A DNA stretch of 58,462 nucleotides from Prochlorococcus sp. AG-418-I21. Lineage in GTDB: Bacteria > Cyanobacteriota > Cyanobacteriia > PCC-6307 > Cyanobiaceae. Position numbers and translations under genes: made by a program. The stretch is from contig QCMA01000005.1 of NCBI GenBank assembly GCA_003214115.1, forward strand, positions 1 through 58,462, written 5' to 3'. Positions 34,704 to 46,472 of the stretch are shown piece after piece (positions within the stretch are counted from its first letter, which is position 1; each line of letters begins with the position of its first letter). Under the pieces are notes generated by a model. The model ran no database searches, had not been told where the DNA came from, and saw nothing but the letters and a program-made list of their open reading frames with translations.

Positions 34704-35408
34704 ATGAAAGGCTTAGCCTTAGTTGTAGGCGCAGGTGGAATTGGAACACAACTAGCTAAAGATCTGAATGAAAGTGAAAAAGATTTAGATGTTGTTTTGT
34801 GTGGAAGAAAAAGTGAATTTAATCCTTTTTGGGAATTAGATATAGAGGATTCTCAATCCCTTTTGCAGTTGAAAAATAAAATATCAAATCATCCTTCAAA
34901 ATTAAGGCTAGTTGTTAATGCTACAGGTAGACTTCATGGTGGTTCTCTTCAACCGGAAAAAAGATTACAACATCTTGATAAAAAGAATATGATGGAAAGT
35001 TTTTCAATAAATGCCTTTTCTCCTATTTTATTAGCTAAAGCGATTGAAGAATTTATACCAAAAGATTGCGATTTTAATTTTGCAAGTATAAGTGCAAGAG
35101 TTGGTAGCATTGGAGATAATCAAACTGGAGGTTGGTATTCATATAGAGCTGCAAAATCTGCGCAAAATCAGTTTTTTAAATCTTTAAGTATTGAATGGGC
35201 TAGACGTTTCCCAAAGGCTGCTATCACATTGCTTCATCCAGGAACAGTAGATACTGATTTATCTAGACCTTTTCATAAATTTGTTCCAGAACATAAATTA
35301 TTTAGTAAAGAAAAATCCTCCCAATTCTTGATCAATATTATTAAAAATCAATCACCAGAATCTTCTGGAAAATTTGTTGCATGGGATAGTTCTGAAATCC
35401 CCTGGTAA
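34704..35408 (+). CDS. Short-chain dehydrogenase/reductase
   Basis: NAD(P)-binding Rossmann enzyme: N-terminal ALVVGAGGIGTQLAKDL, an NATG-type segment (VVNATGRLHGG), catalytic Ser in FASISARVGSI and YxxxK in WYSYRAAKSAQNQF. LHPGTVDTDLSRPF gives the C-terminal substrate region. 234 residues. Substrate not identifiable. Confidence 0.85.
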   Translation: MKGLALVVGAGGIGTQLAKDLNESEKDLDVVLCGRKSEFNPFWELDIEDSQSLLQLKNKISNHPSKLRLVVNATGRLHGGSLQPEKRLQHLDKKNMMESFSINAFSPILLAKAIEEFIPKDCDFNFASISARVGSIGDNQTGGWYSYRAAKSAQNQFFKSLSIEWARRFPKAAITLLHPGTVDTDLSRPFHKFVPEHKLFSKEKSSQFLINIIKNQSPESSGKFVAWDSSEIPW

Positions 35409-35488
35409 TTTTATAATTTCTGAAAGTTTCTAAATTTGGGGATATATTTTTTTTAAATTAATTAAATGAGGTTCTAATTTTTGTTATT

Positions 35489-36355
35489 TTAATTTTTACT
35501 TGGATAAAATTTAAGCCAATTTTCTCGTCTGTTATATCGCCAAGTTAAAGGTGATGAATTATTTTTTAGTTCCTTTTTAATAAAGGATGCATCATTCATA
35601 AAAGCTCTTATTAAATTAATACGAGTAATATAATCCGGGTGTCTTTTTGATTGACCTTTGGTATGAATTATTCCATATTGTTTGTAAAAGTATTCCATTG
35701 CCTTGAGAAAAGTATCTTTTGGGTAGTCAGCTTGAAGAAGGATCAATGCTCCACCTAAATCTGCTTCAGATTCAATTATTTGTTTTTCATTGAGAAAAAC
35801 TTCATTTATCGCTTCATCAGTTTTATTAGGATTATCTTGCCATGATTTTAAAGCTTTAAATGATGCCTCAAATGGCGCAAATTGAATTATATGGAACATT
35901 TCATGAGCAATAGCTGCAGCAATAAAATTTTCTTTACCTTCTAGAACTCTAAATGTTGATCTATTTATGAGAATTGTTCCTGTTGGATAGGCACTAGCAT
36001 TCGCATGTCCATGTAAATAAGATTGCTTAATTGCATAATTAACATCTCTAGATCTATAACCTCTATATTTTTTAAAAGGATCAAGATTTTCAAAGTAAAA
36101 GCAAATATTTTTTTTATCCTTACATATTCCCGTATCTACCATGAGATAGTGCATATCTTCTCCAGCTCTTATGATTATTGAGACAGGTCTATTACCTAAG
36201 TCATTATTTAAAGAGAATTTATCAAATATTTTTTTTACCAATTTATATTCTTTTGGCATTAGTGATAGTGAATAATTTCTGTATCTATTTATTAAGAACA
36301 AAAAAATAAATATAAATAAAAAAATTGACCCATTCTTAATTAGCTTTTGCATCAC
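35489..36355 (-). CDS. Membrane-anchored M48-like zinc metallopeptidase
   Basis: A basic N-terminus and hydrophobic helix (residues 8-21, GSIFLFIFIFLFLI) should anchor it in a membrane. The catalytic domain has AIAHEMFHIIQF with the HExxH zinc site, and downstream ESEADLGGALILLQ supplying the third ligand. The GTG start (36355) overlaps the TGA stop of the preceding repeat-protein gene by 4 bases, the classic arrangement for translational coupling, which makes it the last gene of the repeat/helicase operon. Whether it functions with that operon is inference. Confidence 0.72.
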   Translation of the reverse strand: MMQKLIKNGSIFLFIFIFLFLINRYRNYSLSLMPKEYKLVKKIFDKFSLNNDLGNRPVSIIIRAGEDMHYLMVDTGICKDKKNICFYFENLDPFKKYRGYRSRDVNYAIKQSYLHGHANASAYPTGTILINRSTFRVLEGKENFIAAAIAHEMFHIIQFAPFEASFKALKSWQDNPNKTDEAINEVFLNEKQIIESEADLGGALILLQADYPKDTFLKAMEYFYKQYGIIHTKGQSKRHPDYITRINLIRAFMNDASFIKKELKNNSSPLTWRYNRRENWLKFYPSKN

Positions 36356-37494
36356 ATTTCTTTTCCTATCTCTTTGATTAATAAACGATATGCATCAAGA
36401 GGAGAAATGTTCATAGCCACAGATAGTTTTTTAGAAATAATTTTAATTTCATTAGGAATGTCATTCCACCTATATCCCATTTTGATTGAAGCATTATTTA
36501 TTGGTTCGCCCCACTTTTCCTCAGGCCAACCTTTCTTGATTCTTAACGCTAATAAGCCCGCATCCATATTAAATAATCTTGCTAGTTGATTTATAGAGGC
36601 ATATCTAATTCCTTTGTATGTGATCTCATAACTTATTTTTTCTTCACCCCAATCTTCTTGAGGTAAACCTTTACTTATTCTTCCTATAAGAGTTGTTAAA
36701 GGGATTCCTAGATGTTCAGCCAATGCTTTTTTTGATATAAATTTTTGGCCTTTATAAATAATTTCGTAGTGGTTTGATCCTTCACTCCATCTTTCTTGTG
36801 GCCAACCTTTTTTAATTCTTCGTGAGAGTAAATTCGAAGATATTCCTATGAAATTAGCTAAATTATTTATCGATTTATATGTGTCCCCGAAATATAAAAT
36901 CTCTTTATTATTAATATTTTCTTTTTCTCCCCATTTCTCCTGGGGAATATTCTGTTTCATTCTTGATTGAAGTAACCCAACAGTTATATTTAAAAACTTT
37001 GCGAGTTTTGTTAATGATGGAAAATATTGCCCTAAATAATAAATTTCTTTATTTTGCAAATTATTTAATCCCCATTCTGATTTGGGTTTTTTAGCTTTCA
37101 TGCGGGCATAGAGTACTGCCTCATCGATATTTAAATATCTAGCTAATTCAGCTTTTGATTCAAAATATTTATCTTCAAATGTTATTCCATATAGATTTTT
37201 TTCTCCCCATTTATCTTCTGGTACACCTCTCTTAATTCTTCGATTCAGGCATTTAGTAGTTATACCAAGAAAGGAGGCTAGCTTTGATTGTGATTGATAA
37301 GATTTACCCTTATAAATGATTTCATGACTTTGTTTCTTTTCTCCCCAATTTTCTTGAGGTAATCCTTTTTTAATTCTCCGTTGTAATACAGAAATTCCAA
37401 TTCCAAGATGGTTTGCTAAAGCTTTTTTAGAAGGATAAGTTTTGCCTAAATAATCAATACTGTAAGGATTTTTCATCTTAGATTTCATTCCCAA
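36352..37494 (-). CDS. Tandem-repeat helix-turn-helix-like protein, 7 repeats
   Basis: Built from seven consecutive copies of a ~46-48-residue unit: a beta-like I-x-Y-x-G-K-x-Y, then x-S-x-x-x-LA-x-x-LGI, a short helix with T-L-x-x-RI, and KGWPQExWGE. The middle part looks like a helix-turn-helix. The C-terminal 60 residues (GYRWNDIPNEIKIISKKLSV, then AYRLLIKEIGKEM) form a separate domain shared with the two upstream genes. Start could be TTG 37494 or ATG 37488. Overlaps the genes on both sides. No known family name is certain; NUMOD-type modules are the nearest idea. Confidence 0.8.
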   Translation of the reverse strand: MGMKSKMKNPYSIDYLGKTYPSKKALANHLGIGISVLQRRIKKGLPQENWGEKKQSHEIIYKGKSYQSQSKLASFLGITTKCLNRRIKRGVPEDKWGEKNLYGITFEDKYFESKAELARYLNIDEAVLYARMKAKKPKSEWGLNNLQNKEIYYLGQYFPSLTKLAKFLNITVGLLQSRMKQNIPQEKWGEKENINNKEILYFGDTYKSINNLANFIGISSNLLSRRIKKGWPQERWSEGSNHYEIIYKGQKFISKKALAEHLGIPLTTLIGRISKGLPQEDWGEEKISYEITYKGIRYASINQLARLFNMDAGLLALRIKKGWPEEKWGEPINNASIKMGYRWNDIPNEIKIISKKLSVAMNISPLDAYRLLIKEIGKEM

Positions 37495-38323
37495 TTTCCT
37501 TTAATAAAAGTTGGTAGGCCTTTATTACGTCGATATTTAATATAGTTGCCAATTTTTTAGAGATTATTTTTAGTTTCTCTGGCACTTTATCCCATGAATA
37601 TCCAGTGGATACTCTTGCATCATTTTCAGGTTCTCCCCATTTTTCTTCAGGTAAACCTCTATCAATTCTATTTTTTAAAGTTGCTCTTCCTATTTTTAGA
37701 TATCTTGCTAGGTGACTAATCGATTCGAAAACCTGATTCTTATATGGGATGTGATTTTTATCATTACCTGTTACCCACTTTTCCTGAGGAAGACCGCTAT
37801 TTATTCTGAAGTTTAAAGTTGCTTTATCAATCTTTAAAAATTCTGCTAGCTTAGCTCTTGATGGATATATTTTGCCAAAATAAATAATTTCGTAAGGGTT
37901 ACTTTTCTCCGCCCATCTTTTTTGGGGCCATCCTTTCCTAATCCTTAATCTAAGGGTTGAGGCTTTGATGCCAATAAATAATGATAGTTTCTCTATTGAT
38001 CTAAATTGTTTTCCAAAATAAGTAATTTCATAGGAATTATTGGTTTCCTCCCATCTTCTCTCTGGTAAGCCCTCTCTGATATTTTTATTAAGAATATTCG
38101 GATCTATTCCTCTCTTTTTTGCAAGTTTAGATTTCGAATAATATTTTTCCCCTTTATAGAAAATATGCGTTGGCTTAGATCTAGTGCCCCATTCTTCTTG
38201 AGGCAATCCTTTCTTTATTCTCGAGTGCAATGTACTACGTTTCACTTTCAACAATTTGGCAAGTTTACTTATTGATGAAAATAATTGCCCTTTGTATTCA
38301 ATTGGTTTGCCTTTAAAGGGCAT
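37478..38323 (-). CDS. Tandem-repeat helix-turn-helix-like protein, 5 repeats
   Basis: Five repeats of the same unit (for example IEYKGQLFSSISKLAKLLKV and RSTLHSRIKKGLPQEEWG), then the shared C-terminal domain GYSWDKVPEKLKIISKKLAT and AYQLLLKEIGNEI. 281 residues. ATG with an AGGGAG-type ribosome site; its start lies inside the end of the 38313 gene (11-base overlap) and its stop overlaps the next gene by 17 bases. Likely a DNA- or RNA-binding array (inference from the HTH-like core). Confidence 0.8.
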   Translation of the reverse strand: MPFKGKPIEYKGQLFSSISKLAKLLKVKRSTLHSRIKKGLPQEEWGTRSKPTHIFYKGEKYYSKSKLAKKRGIDPNILNKNIREGLPERRWEETNNSYEITYFGKQFRSIEKLSLFIGIKASTLRLRIRKGWPQKRWAEKSNPYEIIYFGKIYPSRAKLAEFLKIDKATLNFRINSGLPQEKWVTGNDKNHIPYKNQVFESISHLARYLKIGRATLKNRIDRGLPEEKWGEPENDARVSTGYSWDKVPEKLKIISKKLATILNIDVIKAYQLLLKEIGNEI

Positions 38324-39734
38324 TTCCTATCTCCCTTAAAAGTAATTGGTAAGCTTCTACTTGTGTGATATTTAAAACTATAGAGAGTTTTTTAGAGAGC
38401 TCTTTTAAATCATTTGGTACGTTTTTCCAATAATATCCGGTAGATACTTTTGCGTTGTTAATTGGTTCGCCCCAATATTCTTGAGCCCAACCTAATCGAA
38501 TTCTTTTTGAGAGTGTTTCACGTCTTATACCAAGATAATCTGCAAGCTGTCTTTGAGACTCAAAATACTTTCCATCATATTCAATTTCATAAATATTTGA
38601 CTCATCCACGGCTTTATTAATTGCTTGTTCAAGAGAAAGGCCCTGCCTTCGATGCCATCTAATACTCTCAGATTTTTTAAGTATTTTTAAATGAGAAAGT
38701 AAATCGTTTATTGATTTGTAGGTTTCTCCTTTGTAATTAATTTTTGTTGATTTAGTTTTCTCTCCCCAATATTCTTGAGCCCAACCAAGTTGAATTCTTC
38801 TTCTTAATGTCCCCTGATTAACATTTAAATAAGTTGCTAGTTCTTTGAGGTTGTATAGCTTATTCTCATAATTAATAATTCTATTTCTTTCACTTGTTTT
38901 AATGATTGGTTCATTCCACCTTTCTTCAGGCCAGTTATTTCTTATTCTTTGTGAAAGAGTTCTCTCATTAATATTTAAATGTTCAGAAAGCTTTGAAATT
39001 GAATCATATTGTTTTCCTTGATATTTAACTTGATAAGAAATTTCTGGTTCACCCCACATCTCTTCTGGCAATTTTTTTTTAATTCTATTTCTTAATACAT
39101 TTACAGTAATGCCCAAATAAATAGAAAGTTCCTTTATTGAAGAAAAGGTCTTGCTTTGATATTTAATTTCATATGAGTGTTTTCTTTCGCCCCACCTTTC
39201 TTGGGGCCATCCTCTATCTCTTCGGCCTTGAATTATTTCCAAAGGAAGTTCTAGTTTTTCAGATAACTTATTTATTGATGAATATACCTTTCCTTTATAT
39301 TCAATAATGCGATTATCTCTTTCTCCCCACCTTTCTTGAGGCCATTTTTTGAAGATTCTGTCATAAAGGGTTTGCGGCTTAATCCCTAATTCATTTGCAA
39401 GAACTTTGTGATTACTGTATTTAATTCCGTTATAAAAAATTTCTGTGCTTTGTTTTTTCTTCTCTTTCCATCTTGCTTTAGGCCAATTGTTCCTTATACG
39501 TTCGCTAAGCATTTTCCCATTAATTCCTAAATGCCTTGCCAGATGATTTATGGAACTATAAATTTTCCCATCATATTCAATACTCCTGACCTTACCTGCC
39601 TTTAAACCCCAATTCTCTTCAGGCCATTTGTTCTTGATTCTATCTCTTAATGTGGCTCTATTAATTTCTAAATAAGCAGCTAAGCTTGCAATTGAATCAA
39701 ATACTTTTCCTTTATATTTTAATCTGTTATCCAT
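38313..39734 (-). CDS. Tandem-repeat helix-turn-helix-like protein, 9 repeats
   Basis: Nine repeats, of which the eighth is altered (the WPQExWGE end is replaced by RRQGLSLEQAINKAV). Each other repeat has the LA-x-x-LGI and T-L-x-x-RI helices. The end is the shared C-terminal domain GYYWKNVPNDLKELSKKLSI and AYQLLLREIGNAL. 473 residues. The ATG lies in the last 8 bases of the helicase-methyltransferase gene, so the two are coupled. The longest array in the cluster. Confidence 0.8.
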   Translation of the reverse strand: MDNRLKYKGKVFDSIASLAAYLEINRATLRDRIKNKWPEENWGLKAGKVRSIEYDGKIYSSINHLARHLGINGKMLSERIRNNWPKARWKEKKKQSTEIFYNGIKYSNHKVLANELGIKPQTLYDRIFKKWPQERWGERDNRIIEYKGKVYSSINKLSEKLELPLEIIQGRRDRGWPQERWGERKHSYEIKYQSKTFSSIKELSIYLGITVNVLRNRIKKKLPEEMWGEPEISYQVKYQGKQYDSISKLSEHLNINERTLSQRIRNNWPEERWNEPIIKTSERNRIINYENKLYNLKELATYLNVNQGTLRRRIQLGWAQEYWGEKTKSTKINYKGETYKSINDLLSHLKILKKSESIRWHRRQGLSLEQAINKAVDESNIYEIEYDGKYFESQRQLADYLGIRRETLSKRIRLGWAQEYWGEPINNAKVSTGYYWKNVPNDLKELSKKLSIVLNITQVEAYQLLLREIGNAL

Positions 39735-42732
39735 TCTTACATGCTGTGTTATTTAATCTTGGATTAACTAATGCTGAAACCTTGAAGAAAGGGCCAAGAC
39801 TATCTGAGGAATCAATTTTGATGTCTTTAAAACCAGCATTATTTACAACTTCTTCTATTTCATCTAGAGAAATTTGTTTCTTTGTGGCCCAAATTAATAT
39901 TTGTCCCGTTGGTTTAAGAACTCTTCTCGATGAATGTATCATTTGAGGCCAATCTTTTCCCATTAATGAGAGACAAAAAACACCAATATCAACTGAGTTT
40001 TTACCTAATGGAATTTGATCAGCAATATTACACTCAATTATTTTTTCATTTACTCCAATTACATCAAAACTTAAAACTTTATATTCATCACCTAATGCTT
40101 CCATTAGTCTCCCAGTACCACAACCAAAATCTGCAATTATACATCCTTCCATATCCTTCATTTGCTCAATGACTTTATCTATAGGCTTGTACGGCCAATC
40201 ATTTTCTGCTTCATGATAAAGAGTATGGTAGGTTTCAAATTCTTCTGGATTAGCTTGCACCCTCTCAAAATTTGTTTTACCTAAAGATGTATTCCATAGC
40301 CTATTCATAGAACTTAATTCTCCCCCATATTTTCCTAATCTTTTTTCCTTTTCTTTCTCATCTTTAAAAATTATTGGTATTGTAATCTGTCTTTTTTGAT
40401 AAGTTATTCCCCCTATCTCTTCAAGCCTCTCTATCCATTGTAATCTCGCTTCATTTGCTCTTGTTTCTAGGTCTACTTTATTAAGATTTTCAATTTCGCC
40501 ATCAACAACTAGGTTGGAGATATTTCTTTTTTTCTCTATGTGATTAGAAATCTCTTTATCCCAAGACCAGATTCTTTCATGTAATTTCAACTTTGGATTG
40601 TTAACTTCATAATATGCTTCCAAGGTTAGAAAAATGCAATCCGAAGTTTGCCCAGTTCTTGCTAATCTTGCTTCACATTGTTTGCGTATTTCATAAGTCC
40701 AAGGTTGAGCAAAAAATATTGCTTTAGAACAATTATCTTGAAGGCCATCAAATCCAGTACCAATAGCGCTCATTGAAGCCACAAGAATTTGTATATCATT
40801 TCTCAAAAATAAGTCTTTCCCAGATTTATCTGAGCCATAATATGCACCAATTGAAAATTCTAATTTTCTAAGTTCCTTTATAATATTCTTTACTATTCCG
40901 TCGACATGATGAACAAAAATTATAGTCTGCTTATCATCTGAGAGTATCTTTGCTAATTCTTTTATTTTACAATCTAAAGAGTGTTGTTCTTGAACTATCG
41001 CTCTAAAACTTTTGTTTTCGATTAAGTCATTAAATTTTAAAGTGTTATTAATTTTTATTGTTTCTCTTTTACATTTGTAAGGTTTATTTTCTTCTGATTG
41101 TTTCCATCTAGTGGAATGCATAACTAACTCTTGATGAATTTTTAAAGCATTAGCAATATTAGTGTCATGTTTTAAATGCGATAAATCTCTTGTGGGTTCA
41201 ATTAATGAAAGTAGAGAAATTGGCTCACTAAGATCATTGTGTGATGGTGATGCAGTCATTCCATAAATTTTTACTTTTGGATTCTTTGTTCTTAAAAAAG
41301 AAAGTAATTTTTGAGCTTCAATTCTTCTAGCACTTATATCTTCATCCTCTTTTAGTTGTTTCTTATCGGTAATGATTTCAGTTAAACCTCTTTGTTTTAA
41401 TTTGTGTACTTCATCTAAAATTACGAAATCAACTTCATTTTCTTTAGCAAAATTTATTATTTTTTTTTGAACATGAGGATCTGATCTCAAAAGGTCATAA
41501 TTATTTATTAAAACTTTTCGGCTATTCTTTGAATCCCATTCTGGACTCCAGGTACGTTTTTTAATTTCAATTTCTGGGAAGGCTTGTTCAAAGGTGTATT
41601 CCCAGACATCATCGATAACAACTAATGGACAGAAAACAAGCGTCACCCTAGAATTATTTTTTTGTGAAGCAATTGCAGCAGTCAATGATTTCCCCACTCC
41701 GGCATCTGAAGTATTTAGTCTTGATAAATTTTTAGTCATTTGCCACATTTCATACCTTTGCATTAAGAAAGGTATTCTGTGAGTTGGTATAGTAATTCCC
41801 TCTTTATTTTTCCAGATTGGGTTATAACTTTCTGGTAACTTTAAATTTTTTACGATTTTATATTCATCTATTATTTGGATTATTTGTTTCTTAGTGATTC
41901 CCTGCTTTACATTCATCTCTTTTTTGAGAAGATTAATAATCTCTTCTTCTTTCTCAAAAATTAAATTCCATATTTTTTGCCTGCTAAATTCAAATATAAA
42001 TTCAATACTTAACCTATCGTCTAAAGATAAATTACCTAAATCATTTACAAAATCTAAAATTTGGAAAACACCCTTCAAGCCAAGTTCTGGGAGTTTTATT
42101 TCTGAATTATTTTCCTTTTCAGAACTTTTTGCCTTCTTATTTTTATTATGTTTAGTTTTGGATTCTGATGAATCATCATTTAAAATTTTTGGTCCAAATT
42201 CTTTTTCAAGTTCTTCAGGATTAGAAACGATCTTTTGAAATTTTTGTATAAATTTATTTAACGATTCGTTTGTTAATTGTGGGGATTCATTAATTCCTGT
42301 CCCTTCGCTAGTGTTCGTTTTTGTTTTATTATTATTTTTATCTTTTTTTGTCTTATTCAATAATTTTCTCAACTTTAAAATTATCTCTTTACTTTTTTCC
42401 GCTTTTGATTTTAATAAAATTGCAGCAGCGATTCCATCTAATTTGCCTCTCCCAGAGTGAATTATCGACAATAAAGGGGTTGCATCTAATGTTTCTAAAT
42501 CAATATCTTTAATTAGTTTAATTAACTCTTCAATTTCCTCCTCAGAGAGTAGTTTAATTCCAGTTTCTTTTATAATTTTTTCCATGAGTCTATTGCCATT
42601 TTCTCCTAGAAAATCCTTATGAAAATTTAATAAATTTTCTAGGTCCTTTTCTTTGACCATATCGATTTGTTTTTGGACTTTTGATCCCTCAAGAAAAGTA
42701 ATCTCTTCTTTATCTGGTTTGAAAGTTGCCAT
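39727..42732 (-). CDS. SNF2-type helicase fused to Rrp8-like methyltransferase (1001 aa)
   Basis: Residues 1-310 are a charged helical region without a recognised domain. 320-700 form an SF2/SNF2-type motor: Walker A SDAGVGKSL (342-350), DEVH (440-443), TASPS (493-497), and the second lobe with SMSAIGTGFDGLQ and arginine-finger motif QCEARLARTGQ (685-695). 815-990 form a class I SAM methyltransferase: DFGCGTGRL (868-876), SFDVIG, PLGKNSVD and VFCLSLMG. The region before it (NPEEFETYHTLYHEAENDWP) and these motifs closely match eukaryotic Rrp8, an rRNA m1A methyltransferase. I know no bacterial protein with this fusion. Confidence 0.82.
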   Translation of the reverse strand: MATFKPDKEEITFLEGSKVQKQIDMVKEKDLENLLNFHKDFLGENGNRLMEKIIKETGIKLLSEEEIEELIKLIKDIDLETLDATPLLSIIHSGRGKLDGIAAAILLKSKAEKSKEIILKLRKLLNKTKKDKNNNKTKTNTSEGTGINESPQLTNESLNKFIQKFQKIVSNPEELEKEFGPKILNDDSSESKTKHNKNKKAKSSEKENNSEIKLPELGLKGVFQILDFVNDLGNLSLDDRLSIEFIFEFSRQKIWNLIFEKEEEIINLLKKEMNVKQGITKKQIIQIIDEYKIVKNLKLPESYNPIWKNKEGITIPTHRIPFLMQRYEMWQMTKNLSRLNTSDAGVGKSLTAAIASQKNNSRVTLVFCPLVVIDDVWEYTFEQAFPEIEIKKRTWSPEWDSKNSRKVLINNYDLLRSDPHVQKKIINFAKENEVDFVILDEVHKLKQRGLTEIITDKKQLKEDEDISARRIEAQKLLSFLRTKNPKVKIYGMTASPSHNDLSEPISLLSLIEPTRDLSHLKHDTNIANALKIHQELVMHSTRWKQSEENKPYKCKRETIKINNTLKFNDLIENKSFRAIVQEQHSLDCKIKELAKILSDDKQTIIFVHHVDGIVKNIIKELRKLEFSIGAYYGSDKSGKDLFLRNDIQILVASMSAIGTGFDGLQDNCSKAIFFAQPWTYEIRKQCEARLARTGQTSDCIFLTLEAYYEVNNPKLKLHERIWSWDKEISNHIEKKRNISNLVVDGEIENLNKVDLETRANEARLQWIERLEEIGGITYQKRQITIPIIFKDEKEKEKRLGKYGGELSSMNRLWNTSLGKTNFERVQANPEEFETYHTLYHEAENDWPYKPIDKVIEQMKDMEGCIIADFGCGTGRLMEALGDEYKVLSFDVIGVNEKIIECNIADQIPLGKNSVDIGVFCLSLMGKDWPQMIHSSRRVLKPTGQILIWATKKQISLDEIEEVVNNAGFKDIKIDSSDSLGPFFKVSALVNPRLNNTACKNG

Positions 42733-42755
42733 AATATTTTCAAAAATAGTTTTAT

Positions 42756-43757
42756 CTAAAAAGGAATATCCTCTGCGTTAATTTCATCATTGTTATCTGT
42801 ATTAGTATCAGATATTTTTTTCTCCTCTATATTAAATCTAATAATTGTTTCTTTGCCCCATTGACTCTGAGGCCAACCTCTTTTTATTCGACCTCTTAAA
42901 GTTTGAGGGTTGACCCCTAAAGCTTCAGCCAAAGCTGAAATAGATGGATAACTTTGCCCTTGATAAATAATTTCATGTTTTAATGTTGGTTTGCCCCATT
43001 TAGATGGAGGTAACCCTTTATTAATTTGATTTCTCAACATTGCTGGCCTGATACCTAAATAATCTGCCAAAGCTGAGATTGATTCAAAGCGCTTCCCTTT
43101 ATAAAAATAATGAGTAAGCTTATTATTTTTTTGATCCCATCTATTTTCAGGCCATCCTTTGGAGATTCGGGAACATAATATTAATGGTTTTATACCCAAA
43201 TGTTTAGCTAATTCTTTGATTGAATAAGTTACACCTCTGAATGAAACTTTTTTCAGTAAGTTAGCTTTATTGAATTCTTTATCTTGAATATTCTTCTTAA
43301 TTATATCTTGGTCTAACCCTTCATGATCATAATCTCCAAATTCAGAACTATTATAAATTCTTTCTAAAATTCCTCTCACAGAATTACCCATTAACTTATT
43401 AGGGTCAGAATCTTTCCAATCAATATGATCTAGACAGCCCTCTGATGTCATGCATAATAAACGATTCTGCAGTCTTGCTTTAAATTCATCATTTTGGTGA
43501 GACCATTCAGTAATCTCGAAAGAGCCTAAAGGATCATCTTCATTGCCAGTGCAATAGACGACTGTTATTTTTAAACCTTCGAAAAGTCCCTTCATCAAAA
43601 ATAATCCTGGGAAAAACTTTCTTCGTAGTGCAATAGCAGTGGTTGCACGGCCATTATCAACTATCTTAATTGGCACTTCAACTGCTATTTCTCCATTAAT
43701 CAAGACTTTTTCTGGAGCTTGTTCAGTTACTTCAGCTAATAAAAAACCATTAGACAT
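42756..43757 (-). CDS. SSB-like protein with three inserted HTH-like repeats
   Basis: Residues 1-105 resemble an OB-fold single-strand-binding protein (NGFLLAEVTEQAPEKVLING, then a long beta region to ITVVYCTGN and SFEITEWSH). 106-168 is a linker. Three copies of the ~47-residue repeat follow (168-207, 217-255, 263-302). The C-terminus is acidic and ends NAEDIPF, as in the DIPF tip that bacterial SSBs use to recruit partners. First gene of the operon, 23 bases before the helicase gene. ssDNA binding is inferred from the two end features together. Confidence 0.75.
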   Translation of the reverse strand: MSNGFLLAEVTEQAPEKVLINGEIAVEVPIKIVDNGRATTAIALRRKFFPGLFLMKGLFEGLKITVVYCTGNEDDPLGSFEITEWSHQNDEFKARLQNRLLCMTSEGCLDHIDWKDSDPNKLMGNSVRGILERIYNSSEFGDYDHEGLDQDIIKKNIQDKEFNKANLLKKVSFRGVTYSIKELAKHLGIKPLILCSRISKGWPENRWDQKNNKLTHYFYKGKRFESISALADYLGIRPAMLRNQINKGLPPSKWGKPTLKHEIIYQGQSYPSISALAEALGVNPQTLRGRIKRGWPQSQWGKETIIRFNIEEKKISDTNTDNNDEINAEDIPF

Positions 43758-43782
43758 TTTTTCATAAGAGATACGTAAGAAT

Positions 43783-43903
43783 AATACTACCTAGTGTACA
43801 AGGGGCTGTCAACAAAAAAATATTAAAATATATTGATTCTCCTAAACTTGTTTAAATAAACATATTGAATCCTTTTCTGCCTATAGTATACTTAGGTAGT
43901 ATT
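43783..43903. promoter_or_regulatory. Divergent promoter region with 11-bp inverted repeats
   Basis: AATACTACCTA (43783-43793) and its exact reverse complement TAGGTAGTATT (43893-43903) face each other about 99 bases apart. The identity extends in part to the next bases (GTGTAC and GTATAC, 43886-43891). Each copy lies close to the start of one of the two divergent genes, so it is well placed as an operator for a shared regulator. TATAGT at 43883-43888 is a possible -10 box for the plus gene. Confidence 0.6.
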
Positions 43904-43927
43904 TTTTATAGATTGTTTTTTAGGTGA

Positions 43928-45094
43928 ATGTCTTTTTCAAAAGAAAATTTCAATTCAAGGGTTTTAGCTGCTATTGATGAAGGAGATTCTGTTTATTTAA
44001 AAAAGCTTGTTGATGTGGCTAAATTATTAAATGCAAATAATGAGCTTAAAATGCTCCATGAAGCAATCGGCACAAGTGATGGAGGATTAACTCATATTCG
44101 ATATCAAAATAAAAGTTTTCCTACTATTAAGAGTCTTGCCAAATATTTATCAGTATCACCAAAAGTATTAGCTGAAAGATTAAAGAGAGGTTTACCAGAG
44201 GAAGAATGGGGTAAAACTTCAAAATCTTTACCTATTACTTATTTAGGAAAAGAATTTAAATCTATAGCTGATCTTGCTAAAACTTTAAATTTAAATAGAG
44301 CCGTTTTGTATAAAAGAATTAGTGATGGTTGGCCCGAAGACCGCTGGGGGGAATCAAGTCTTAAACATGATAGAGATTCTAGGATCATTACTAGATATAA
44401 AGAAGGTGACAGCATAAAACAATTAGCAATAAGTTTTGGCTTGAAAATGGATTTTATAAGAGATCTTCTTGAAAGGAGGGGTGAATTAAAACCAGTGGAT
44501 AAAATGTATGTAGTTAAATTTAATCCTCGTCGAAAAAAACAATTAAATCTTAGATTAAATATTGATTATCAAGAAAAGATTGAAAAAATCAGGAATTATT
44601 GGTCTAAGAAAGGGAAATTCAAATTTTTAGAAAGTTCACTTTCAGATTTATCAACTTTAAATTCTGATTCAACATTGGCGAAGTTTATTTTAGAAAAATC
44701 ATTAGATAATCTTTCCCTTGAATTGGAGAATGAATTAAATATAGATCGCTTTATAGAAAAAATTTGTGAATTAAGAATTGAAGATAAGAAGCTTCATAAG
44801 CAATGGCAAAAAGTGAAATTAAAAAATTATGAAAATGGCATTTTTAAAAATCTTTTAAGTAATGAATTAATTGAATATGAAAAAACAATTGAACAAATTG
44901 GTGAGAATCTAATTAAACAGGATTTAGAAAAAGAAACTCCAGAAACAGATTTAATTCTTCAAAAGAAGTTCTGGAAAATTGCGATAAAAAAATCTTATTT
45001 AATTCCGGATCGCAAATCAGAAAGGATATCTGAAAACATAATTCAACAAAAAATGTTAGATCTTTTAAAGAAAAATTATCCAGACATCATATAA
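43928..45094 (+). CDS. Divergent protein with two HTH-like repeats and a long charged tail
   Basis: Residues 1-55 are a helical N-terminus (VLAAIDEGDSVYLKKLVDVA), then two repeats (58-95 and 104-141) of the type found in the opposite operon. A further HTH-like stretch (SIKQLAISFGLKMDFIRDLL) follows, then about 200 residues of charged helices (LNLRLNIDYQEKIEKIRNYW, and FIEKICELRIEDKKLHKQWQ). ATG with AGGTG ribosome-like site. Position and shared repeats suggest it regulates or assists the cluster; this is inference. Confidence 0.7.
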   Translation: MSFSKENFNSRVLAAIDEGDSVYLKKLVDVAKLLNANNELKMLHEAIGTSDGGLTHIRYQNKSFPTIKSLAKYLSVSPKVLAERLKRGLPEEEWGKTSKSLPITYLGKEFKSIADLAKTLNLNRAVLYKRISDGWPEDRWGESSLKHDRDSRIITRYKEGDSIKQLAISFGLKMDFIRDLLERRGELKPVDKMYVVKFNPRRKKQLNLRLNIDYQEKIEKIRNYWSKKGKFKFLESSLSDLSTLNSDSTLAKFILEKSLDNLSLELENELNIDRFIEKICELRIEDKKLHKQWQKVKLKNYENGIFKNLLSNELIEYEKTIEQIGENLIKQDLEKETPETDLILQKKFWKIAIKKSYLIPDRKSERISENIIQQKMLDLLKKNYPDII

Positions 45095-45155
45095 TTCTAG
45101 GTTTTGAATAGTTATTTATTAATGATCAAAAATTTGTTTTATTAAAAGCTTAAAA

Positions 45156-45308
45156 ATGAAAAACTTCCTCATATCAGGTTTGGTAGATGAAAAATATAGA
45201 ATAAAGGTTAATCTTTTAGCGATCTCTCCTGATCATGCCATAAAGGTTTTTCAGCAAAAATATCCTAATGCAAAAGATATTTACTTGATTCAGCAATTAA
45301 GTAAGTAA
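45156..45308 (+). CDS. Small protein (50 aa), unknown
   Basis: ATG start; MKNFLISGLVDEKYRIKVNL, then AISPDHAIKVFQQKYPNAKD. It has a strand-strand-helix look, and the AISPDHAIKVFQQKYP part resembles small proteins found in marine cyanobacteria. Its end overlaps the convergent aminotransferase gene by 12 bases. Confidence 0.55.
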   Translation: MKNFLISGLVDEKYRIKVNLLAISPDHAIKVFQQKYPNAKDIYLIQQLSK

Positions 45309-46472
45309 TTTTTTAATTTCTTCAGAAAGTAAATTAATCTCAGCTTCTGTAGTCATTTGATGTACGCATGCTCTAAACCATTTTGGATCTTCTAAAACTC
45401 TAATCCAAATTTTCTTTTCTCCAAGTTTCTTTACAAATTTATCCTTATCTTTAATATTTTCGATATTAAAACTAACAATCCCATTTAAATATTTTTTTTC
45501 TAAAACTAATTCAACACCCTTTGATTGATTTAATTCATCCCAAAGTTTTCCACTTAATTTTTTGATATTTTTGTTTTTTTCTTTTTCATGGCAGTCTTTA
45601 TCCAAAAGATCTAAAGAATTCCGAAGCCCAGCAAGTAAAGGAATACAAGAGGTAGCTATTTCAAATTTCCTTGCATCATCATGAAAAAGATTATCTGAAG
45701 GCTCATAAATACCTTGTTCTTTTTTTAATGATTTCCAACCAATTATTGTTGGATCTGTTTCATGAATAAATCTATCTGAGACATAAATGGCTCCAAGTCC
45801 TTCTGGTCCACATGCCCATTTATGAGAAGTTATTGAATATAAATCGGAATAAAAAACTTCTTTTTCAATATTTATGTGACCAAAGGTTTGAGCACCATCA
45901 ACAAGTAAATAAGAGTCTTCTCGATTATTTTTTAATTTGATAGAAATTTTTTTTAAAGGGATTTTATATCCAAAGTTCCATAAGATATGAGAAATAATTA
46001 GGATCTTAGTCTTTCTATTTATATTTTTCAAAATCTCTAAAATTATATTTTCGTCGTTTAGATTTTTAATTTTTTGGATTGGCAAAATTTTGAATATTAA
46101 TTTATTTCTCCTGCAAAATTCACGACTTGCAGCCACTACTCCAGGATGTTCACAGTCACTTATTAACAACTCTTCTCCCTCTTTTACTTTTATTCCCCAG
46201 AAGGGCAAAATCATACCAGAAGAGATGTTTTCGGTAAGAGCTACATTCTTTGAATTGACACCTAATTTTTGTGCAATGATTCTTTTTGTGGTCAATATTT
46301 CTTTATAAATAAAAGGCCACATATCATTAGTAAATGGTCCTAAATCTTGGATAATTTCCCAAGTTTTAACTATTGCTTCTAGAGAAGATTTTGGTAATGG
46401 TCCTTGACCGCCGTAGTTGAAATAATACTTATTTTTTAATGCTGGTATTTGATCTCTTAGATTATTTCTCAT
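45297..46472 (-). CDS. Class V aminotransferase (CsdB/isopenicillin N epimerase-like)
   Basis: PLP enzyme of the NifS/SufS-like fold. The PLP lysine lies in YSITSHKWACGPEGLGAIYV; the Asp in LLVDGAQTFGHI stacks the cofactor. NYGGQGPLPKSSLEAI is the N-terminal substrate region. 391 residues. No nearby cysteine-desulfurase partner, so it is probably a separate aminotransferase-like enzyme of unknown substrate. Confidence 0.75.
   Translation of the reverse strand: MRNNLRDQIPALKNKYYFNYGGQGPLPKSSLEAIVKTWEIIQDLGPFTNDMWPFIYKEILTTKRIIAQKLGVNSKNVALTENISSGMILPFWGIKVKEGEELLISDCEHPGVVAASREFCRRNKLIFKILPIQKIKNLNDENIILEILKNINRKTKILIISHILWNFGYKIPLKKISIKLKNNREDSYLLVDGAQTFGHINIEKEVFYSDLYSITSHKWACGPEGLGAIYVSDRFIHETDPTIIGWKSLKKEQGIYEPSDNLFHDDARKFEIATSCIPLLAGLRNSLDLLDKDCHEKEKNKNIKKLSGKLWDELNQSKGVELVLEKKYLNGIVSFNIENIKDKDKFVKKLGEKKIWIRVLEDPKWFRACVHQMTTEAEINLLSEEIKKLLT

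Follow-up and report, generated by a model that had tools for sequence, protein, structure and literature searches.

A clean insertion in Prochlorococcus carries NUMOD1-type repeat arrays beside an SNF2-Rrp8 fusion, a candidate array-addressed DNA modification module

Rrp8 proteins are known as N1-adenine ribosomal RNA (rRNA) methylases, and SNF2 motors act on duplex DNA. Both kinds of domain meet in one protein of a gene cluster that we found in a window of 58,462 nucleotides (the whole stretch of DNA analysed, contig QCMA01000005.1 of Prochlorococcus sp. AG-418-I21). As an initial annotation of the window had read them, six minus-strand genes (P1-P6) lie next to a divergent plus-strand one (P7); P5 joins an SNF2/SWI2 motor to an Rrp8-type methylase, and P2, P3, P4, P6 and P7 carry repeats of one kind. 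Of the described systems (published sources are cited for those parts of their text that were available), the nearest are the SNF2-methylase pairs of phages and conjugative elements; DarB, of this kind, protects the DNA of bacteriophage P1 from type I restriction (PMC5512222). P5 is likewise an SNF2 motor joined to a methylase on a mobile element, but its methylase is of the Rrp8 type, the [DN]PP[YFW] motif of common DNA adenine methylases was absent in a motif search, and tandem, putatively DNA-binding arrays stand beside it. The locus is best read as akin to the DarB dyad, with another methylase and with arrays.

P5 shares with the Rrp8 family (PF05148; structure 2zfu) a methyltransferase domain with the motifs DFGCG and FCLSLMG, whereas it is bacterial, mobile, fused to an SNF2 motor and accompanied by arrays. 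The repeat unit is that of the NUMOD1 modules of homing endonucleases (I-TevI and kin), and NUMOD domains are treated in the available text as homing endonuclease parts (PMC1564403); the cluster differs in having 5-9 units in a row, no Pfam-recognised nuclease domain and an adjoining motor-methylase. A homing endonuclease was rejected on the same ground, that Pfam recognised no nuclease domain among the matches listed. DISARM also has an SNF2 motor (the helicase DrmD) with a methylase, but P5 matched no DISARM model in PADLOC, and DISARM was discarded as no DrmA, DrmB, DrmC or DrmD/methylase match was obtained among the seven proteins; short DrmD matches were present in relatives of P5 (best E 1.2e-8 over 59 residues). 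The methylation-associated defence system (MADS) was discarded too, the NCBIfam MAD1 score being 18.4 bits against a cut-off of 80 and P5 matching no mad gene in PADLOC; the PADLOC mad1 model matched the arrays (best E 6.9e-17). For jumbo phages, the DNA methylases described are of adenine and cytosine classes (PMC7824862), and the term 'Rrp8' was not found in the available text of that paper, nor were 'treble clef', 'zinc ribbon' and 'NUMOD' in that of PMC12839542. In a literature search, mostly outside subscription papers, none of the papers listed was found to describe an array-bearing SNF2-Rrp8 fusion or NUMOD1 arrays that lack a nuclease.

The methyltransferase part of P5 matched Methyltransf_8 (PF05148) with E 4.7e-36 (125.2 bits, Pfam cut-off 27) and the structure of human RRP8 (2zfu) with E 3.7e-21, or E 3.5e-27 when a two-sequence profile was used, and its S-adenosylmethionine motifs, DFGCG and FCLSLMG, are intact. 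Together with the SNF2 motifs, these matches bear out the fusion proposed in the initial annotation. Against PADLOC, P5 gave no match beyond Csm2 at E 0.016.

A profile built from the repeat units, of about 46 residues each, counted 26 copies in the five array proteins (Table 1), in agreement with the earlier estimate; one unit of P4 is strongly degenerate and another has a one-residue deletion. P2, P3, P4 and P6 scored above the Pfam cut-off for NUMOD1 (PF07453, 22.8 bits), with P7 below it at 21.0. By its sequence, the unit is therefore a NUMOD1-type helix-turn-helix (HTH) of a named family known from homing endonucleases, a finding that, by the initial annotation's own standard, tells in part against its reading. 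When 30 units were aligned (26 of the window and 4 of Prochlorococcus AG-418-C09), the 27 gap-free ones aligned to an invariant Trp, far beyond chance, with a mean identity of 42%; among these 27, Leu14 and Trp38 are fixed and Tyr3, Ser10, Leu25, Arg28 and Pro34 nearly so. The scaffold is conserved. Some of the highest variability is seen at positions 21-23 and 26-27, which, by the helix limits of the P3 structure model, lie at or within the second helix of the HTH; this pattern is compatible with base reading but does not prove it. The structure of P3, predicted from an alignment of four array proteins, showed a hairpin and an HTH per unit (mean pLDDT 73.0, pTM 0.29), and its best match among viral models was 'nuclease-associated modular DNA-binding 1' (E 4.2e-8); a search of the PDB with the array fold gave no match at E 0.001. 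P2, P3 and P4 have in common a C-terminal domain of about 50 aa (amino acids), for which Pfam gave no match; the P4 copy has 62% and 53% identity with its two counterparts.

To place the cluster among its relatives, it should be considered that many of the genomes are incomplete (that of the window is given as 68% complete), so that counts within the genus are lower bounds. Array proteins were found in 2 of 266 genomes of the genus and the core family of P5 in 8 of 265, twice with the methylase and six times without it; over the phylum, 8 of 386 genomes matched the core, six with the methylase (the window's own included) and two without. The second Prochlorococcus, AG-418-C09, encodes a 994-aa fusion, 49% identical to P5. 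Its gene overlaps an array gene by one base, and the contig ends within that array gene. Full fusions with 4, 7 and 6 DUF4379 stretches are encoded on plasmids of Crinalium and two Rhodococcus, respectively, and those of genomes G555 and G747 (G and L numbers are our handles for genomes and loci) have four such stretches each. The fusions of G637 and G755 matched INT_rpt instead, at 39.9 and 28.3 bits (cut-off 26.5), and a simple pattern counted 6 copies in the former and 3 in the latter. A five-sequence alignment (A4) brought to light fusions on two IMG/VR contigs (362 and 58 kb), candidate viral by database origin: one has INT_rpt (42.3 bits, 6 copies by pattern), and the other a fourth repeat ending GW-C-HM (3 copies by a strict pattern, 5 by eye), which has no Pfam match; in PHROG it matched phrog_20046, a family of unknown function. 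No relative came up when viral contigs were scanned with P5, P6 and a two-sequence alignment (A1), and none of P5, P4, P6 and the Crinalium core matched a phage record.

Besides that of the window, we thus counted ten intact SNF2-Rrp8 loci (one Prochlorococcus, three plasmids, four cyanobacterial genomes and two IMG/VR contigs), and a tandem array was present in all 11. Two loci have NUMOD1 arrays encoded by adjacent genes; in the others the array is fused to the core and consists of DUF4379 treble clefs (5 loci), INT_rpt (3) or the fourth repeat (1). These figures indicate that the combination recurs, and they weigh on two further explanations. Homing-type array genes and a motor-methylase might be chance neighbours on one island, in line with P1, which is such a co-traveller, and with arrays being common mobile domains; we hold this to be very improbable, because the fusion and array genes overlap in two Prochlorococcus (by 8 bases and 1 base) and an array is fused to the core in nine further loci. 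Alternatively, the Rrp8-type domain, whose closest match is RRP8, might methylate rRNA or transfer RNA (tRNA), the arrays only regulating or binding the island's own promoters, and P7 and the arrays could be repressors. This we consider quite unlikely, since array and methylase form one protein at 9 of the 11 loci and SNF2 motors are described as acting on duplex DNA (PMC5512222).

In a tree of 15 cores, array kinds mostly followed clades; the carrier of the fourth kind fell among those of INT_rpt, and the DUF4379 carriers formed two groups. The tree is taken as a hint only, the program having warned of long branches. Such relatives with other array kinds suggest, at the level of sequence, a DNA-modifying system with a swappable address-reading part. 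Core relatives without the methylase (G191, G056, G023, G449 and others) have other N-terminal parts, that of G449 matching sigma-70 region 4 and the RNA polymerase alpha C-terminal domain. These kin of P5 are large SNF2 proteins (936-1603 aa where read; loci L034, L035, L036 and L057-L061), some adjoined by T5orf172 or like genes (L060 by Pfam, L034 and L058 by eye), and in L034 (G191) Vsr and DUF6339 are nearby. In G705 (L056 7219-10581) the SNF2-Rrp8 copy has decayed: its frame is broken, and the open reading frames (ORFs) upstream of it are unrelated. This copy was excluded from the 11 intact loci. About 3 kb upstream of a viral-contig fusion, a GHKL-type ATPase is encoded (L144 230-1768, HATPase_c_3 E 3.3e-21). 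As to array proteins elsewhere, an Alteromonas mediterranea plasmid encodes a 760-aa protein that strongly matches I-TevI_DNA-bd and NUMOD1 (L031 7161-9443), and five further plasmid records match P4 weakly, the Shewanella one without NUMOD1.

We give an even chance to the explanation that the cluster is a mobile conflict module in which a methyltransferase that travels along DNA is directed by arrays to selected DNA, that is, array-addressed DNA modification. The NUMOD1-type arrays (P2-P4; shorter in P6 and P7) would bind extended DNA sequences and so provide the address, and P5 would be the effector, its SNF2 part travelling along DNA and its Rrp8-type part methylating a base, probably adenine. 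P6 may connect the bound site with proteins of replication or repair by means of a tip of the type found in single-stranded DNA-binding proteins (SSB), P7 may regulate, and P1 and a small ORF would belong to the carrying island. That the substrate is DNA, that binding is sequence-specific and that arrays serve as addresses are inferences, as are all steps of this action. Mobility is indicated by the clean insertion described below, by the same island ends with other cargo in G403, and by relatives on plasmids and IMG/VR contigs. For a part of motor-methylase pairs in conflicts of mobile elements there is published precedent (PMC5512222).

Several observations weigh against array-addressed DNA modification. 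RNA may be the substrate, because Rrp8 proteins are known as rRNA methylases. Positions 2, 7 and 9 of the hairpin and a linker position are as variable as the helix positions, and the match of the array fold to the I-TevI DNA-binding domain in the PDB was weak (probability 0.84, E 2.2, 37 columns). Nuclease families of PHROG, PADLOC and NCBIfam also match the cluster, though in its array parts only, namely phrog_3377, HEase and, below cut-off, TIGR01453; phrog_3377, labelled 'HNH endonuclease', matched all five array proteins (best E 4.9e-34) at its positions 92-181 of 196, and such matches probably arise through the DNA-binding ends of those families. The P6 N-terminus and the P7 C-terminus could hide other activities, and the 11 loci, few and found by homology to their own members, speak for recurrence and not for frequency.

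If array-addressed modification is correct, an Rrp8-type enzyme, known as an rRNA methylase, enters DNA modification, and the way in which Prochlorococcus mobile elements mark DNA or attack it becomes open to test; the existence of four array kinds on a single core makes the address itself testable. Should the arrays read DNA unit by unit through residues 21-23 and 26-27, they would add to zinc fingers and TALEs another natural modular scaffold for DNA recognition, one coupled with a motor and a methylase instead of a nuclease.

The cluster lies in one clean insertion of about 9.9 kb. The genes on its two sides, an SDR on the left and a class-V aminotransferase on the right, are direct convergent neighbours around an empty site in all 12 fetched relatives, drawn from 14 same-genus relatives with the aminotransferase (30 genomes searched; G370 and G265 were left out). 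The sequence GTAATTTT occurs at each junction as part of an imperfect direct repeat of 30 nt. This repeat scored 39; of 2980 random pairs 2 scored as high, and of 3000 inner stretches 11 did. The G+C content is 30.3% in the insert and 31.0% in the remainder. An assembly accident was ruled out, given an insertion exact against 12 relatives and a P5 relative of 49% identity followed by an array gene elsewhere. The insertion as a whole had been missed by the initial annotation, as had a 50-aa ORF at its right end; its statement that neither integrase nor tRNA lies at the edges was confirmed, with no tRNA found near the cluster and no integrase among the Pfam matches shown for its proteins. An insertion with a junction direct repeat, core relatives on plasmids and an array protein on the Alteromonas plasmid would also suit a role in element upkeep, in which arrays bind sites of the island or of a former replicon and P5 serves stability, segregation or movement. 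We judge this role unlikely, since no recombinase, primase or relaxase was among the Pfam matches shown, and since it leaves a methylase with intact motifs unexplained.

The same island ends were found around other cargo in G403 (L082 2597-10395), where the P1 end is 92% and the small-ORF end 86% identical at the DNA level and everything between is different: a DUF2130 protein and two proteins joining zinc-type or HTH repeats to an HNH-like end (by eye; Pfam gave HTH matches in one and none in the other). G403 is one of the four genomes with the nearest relatives of P1, the others being G438, where an HNH-ResIII helicase gene overlaps (Pfam), G351, with a convergent N6_Mtase/Methylase_S protein (both matches under cut-off), and G322, where no cargo was recognised by eye; a P1 match in G213 had no fetched flank. 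Three different conflict-type cargoes adjoin one same host gene, which we take to be SIMPL-like (L034 7342-8124, L082 10961-11746 and L083 4454-5236), and which may be an insertion hotspot.

Such cargo bears on the branch of array-addressed modification in which the module defends the cell, the arrays recognising phage or plasmid sequences and the motor-methylase disabling them, for instance by pairing-blocking adenine lesions in incoming DNA. Restriction-like genes stand beside the nearest P1 relatives in 2 of 4 genomes (G438 and, weakly, G351), a third (G403) has DUF2130 and array proteins alongside, and SNF2-only kin adjoin Vsr and DUF6339 (G191) or a type-I-like methylase by eye (G056). 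Nevertheless, the listed Pfam matches of the cluster (the best 25 each for P4 and P6) include no nuclease domain, the core also occurs on plasmids and viral contigs, and P5 has no PADLOC match other than the marginal Csm2 one, so that we consider cell defence possible though rather unlikely. Within array-addressed modification, we lean slightly towards marking of own DNA or counter-restriction over hitting rival DNA, because no nuclease domain was recognised. The initial annotation had proposed a nucleic-acid-processing or defence-like module; a nucleic-acid-processing module of conflict type is a supported inference, an array accompanying the motor-methylase at all 11 intact loci found, while for defence proper the self-protection of an element fits equally.

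The single relative found for P7 points to a wider, and more doubtful, possibility. The C-terminal part of P7 was found in 2 of 265 genomes of the genus, and the sole relative found lies in G201 (L148 8182-9399) and is 37% identical over 164 residues. In place of the NUMOD1 units of P7, this relative has a DUF4379-like one, which scored 24.0 bits against a cut-off of 24.5. It adjoins a 606-aa protein with four DUF4379 stretches, which that unit resembles (best E 1.4e-5), in a locus (L148 4158-10907) that also encodes a DUF2130 protein and a 500-aa protein with treble-clef-like repeats and an end that is GIY-YIG-like by eye (Pfam gave DUF723 only). The array kind may thus be common across one locus. 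Mainly because of this case, we entertain, as a tentative and rather unlikely explanation, a conflict system in which one replaceable array kind on several proteins of a locus is the common address and the effector is exchanged. The exchanged effectors would be, with the same tentativeness, SNF2-Rrp8 in some loci and, in others that include G201 and G403, nuclease-like proteins (DUF2130, or with HNH-like and GIY-YIG-like ends by eye). If true, such a system would be a protein-encoded counterpart of guide-based targeting.

Two names given earlier were kept in part. P6 had been called SSB-like: its C-terminal tip, AEDIPF, resembles those of the host's two SSBs (SNEIPF and VDEIPF), and the label appears to be owed only to this tip, the N-terminus having matched no SSB by sequence. 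In a structure model of P6 strands are present, with a mean pLDDT of 40.9 that is too poor for structure search. The P6 N-terminus has no relative in the genomes searched, and P6 relatives occur in 2 of 264 genomes of the genus, the second by its repeats only. P1 had been called a metallopeptidase, and its M48 match is marginal, with HEMFH present; against solved structures it had no match at E 0.1. Its relatives were found in 27 of 265 genomes of the genus, mostly without the cluster. Because farther relatives of P1 adjoin assorted island genes, P1 is, as far as these neighbourhoods indicate, a gene of the island that cannot firmly be counted with the array system. That all genes travel together hence did not hold for P1 (27 of 265 genomes, against 2 of 265 for the fusion) or for the P6 N-terminus, and did for the motor-methylase and an array.

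Table 1. Coordinates, in the window, of the genes, domains and junctions of the inserted block
Feature	Position	Strand	Basis
P1, M48-like metallopeptidase, membrane-anchored, HEMFH; probable island gene	35489..36355	-	Pfam 21 bits, cut-off 20.3
P2, 7 NUMOD1-type units, then C-terminal domain of about 50 aa	36352..37494	-	Pfam, unit profile
P3, 5 units, then C-terminal domain	37478..38323	-	Pfam, unit profile, structure model
P4, 9 units (one degenerate), then C-terminal domain	38313..39734	-	Pfam, unit profile
P5, 1001 aa, fusion of SNF2 motor and Rrp8-type methyltransferase	39727..42732	-	Pfam, structure-profile matches
P5, SNF2 motor region (approximate; SDAGVGKS, LDEVH, TASP, GTGFDGLQ)	40633..41772	-	Motifs
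P5, Rrp8-type methyltransferase region (approximate; DFGCG, VDIGVFCLSLMG)	39763..40326	-	Motifs
P6, N-terminus without assigned family, 3 units, SSB-type C-terminal tip AEDIPF	42756..43757	-	
P7, 2 units, further HTH, C-terminal domain common to one G201 protein	43928..45094	+	
50-aa ORF, right end of insert; its relatives at loci of close P1 relatives	45156..45308	+	
Inserted block, about 9.9 kb	35413..45304	.	Flanking genes adjacent in 12/12 fetched relatives
Junction direct repeat GTAATTTT, left copy, within imperfect repeat of about 30 nt	35405..35412	.	
Junction direct repeat GTAATTTT, right copy	45305..45312	.	

Within the block, recomputation gave the same gene overlaps as before: 4 bases for P1/P2, 17 for P2/P3 (if P2 begins at TTG; were it to begin at the in-frame ATG two codons later, the overlap would be 11), 11 for P3/P4 and 8 for P4/P5, with a gap of 23 bases between P5 and P6. 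Promoter-like sites in the region were at chance level (47 found, 47.7 expected). Between P6 and P7 there is a 14-nt inverted repeat, 93% complementary (window 43780-43793 and 43893-43906), one arm of which covers a promoter-like -10 site; it is a possible candidate operator.

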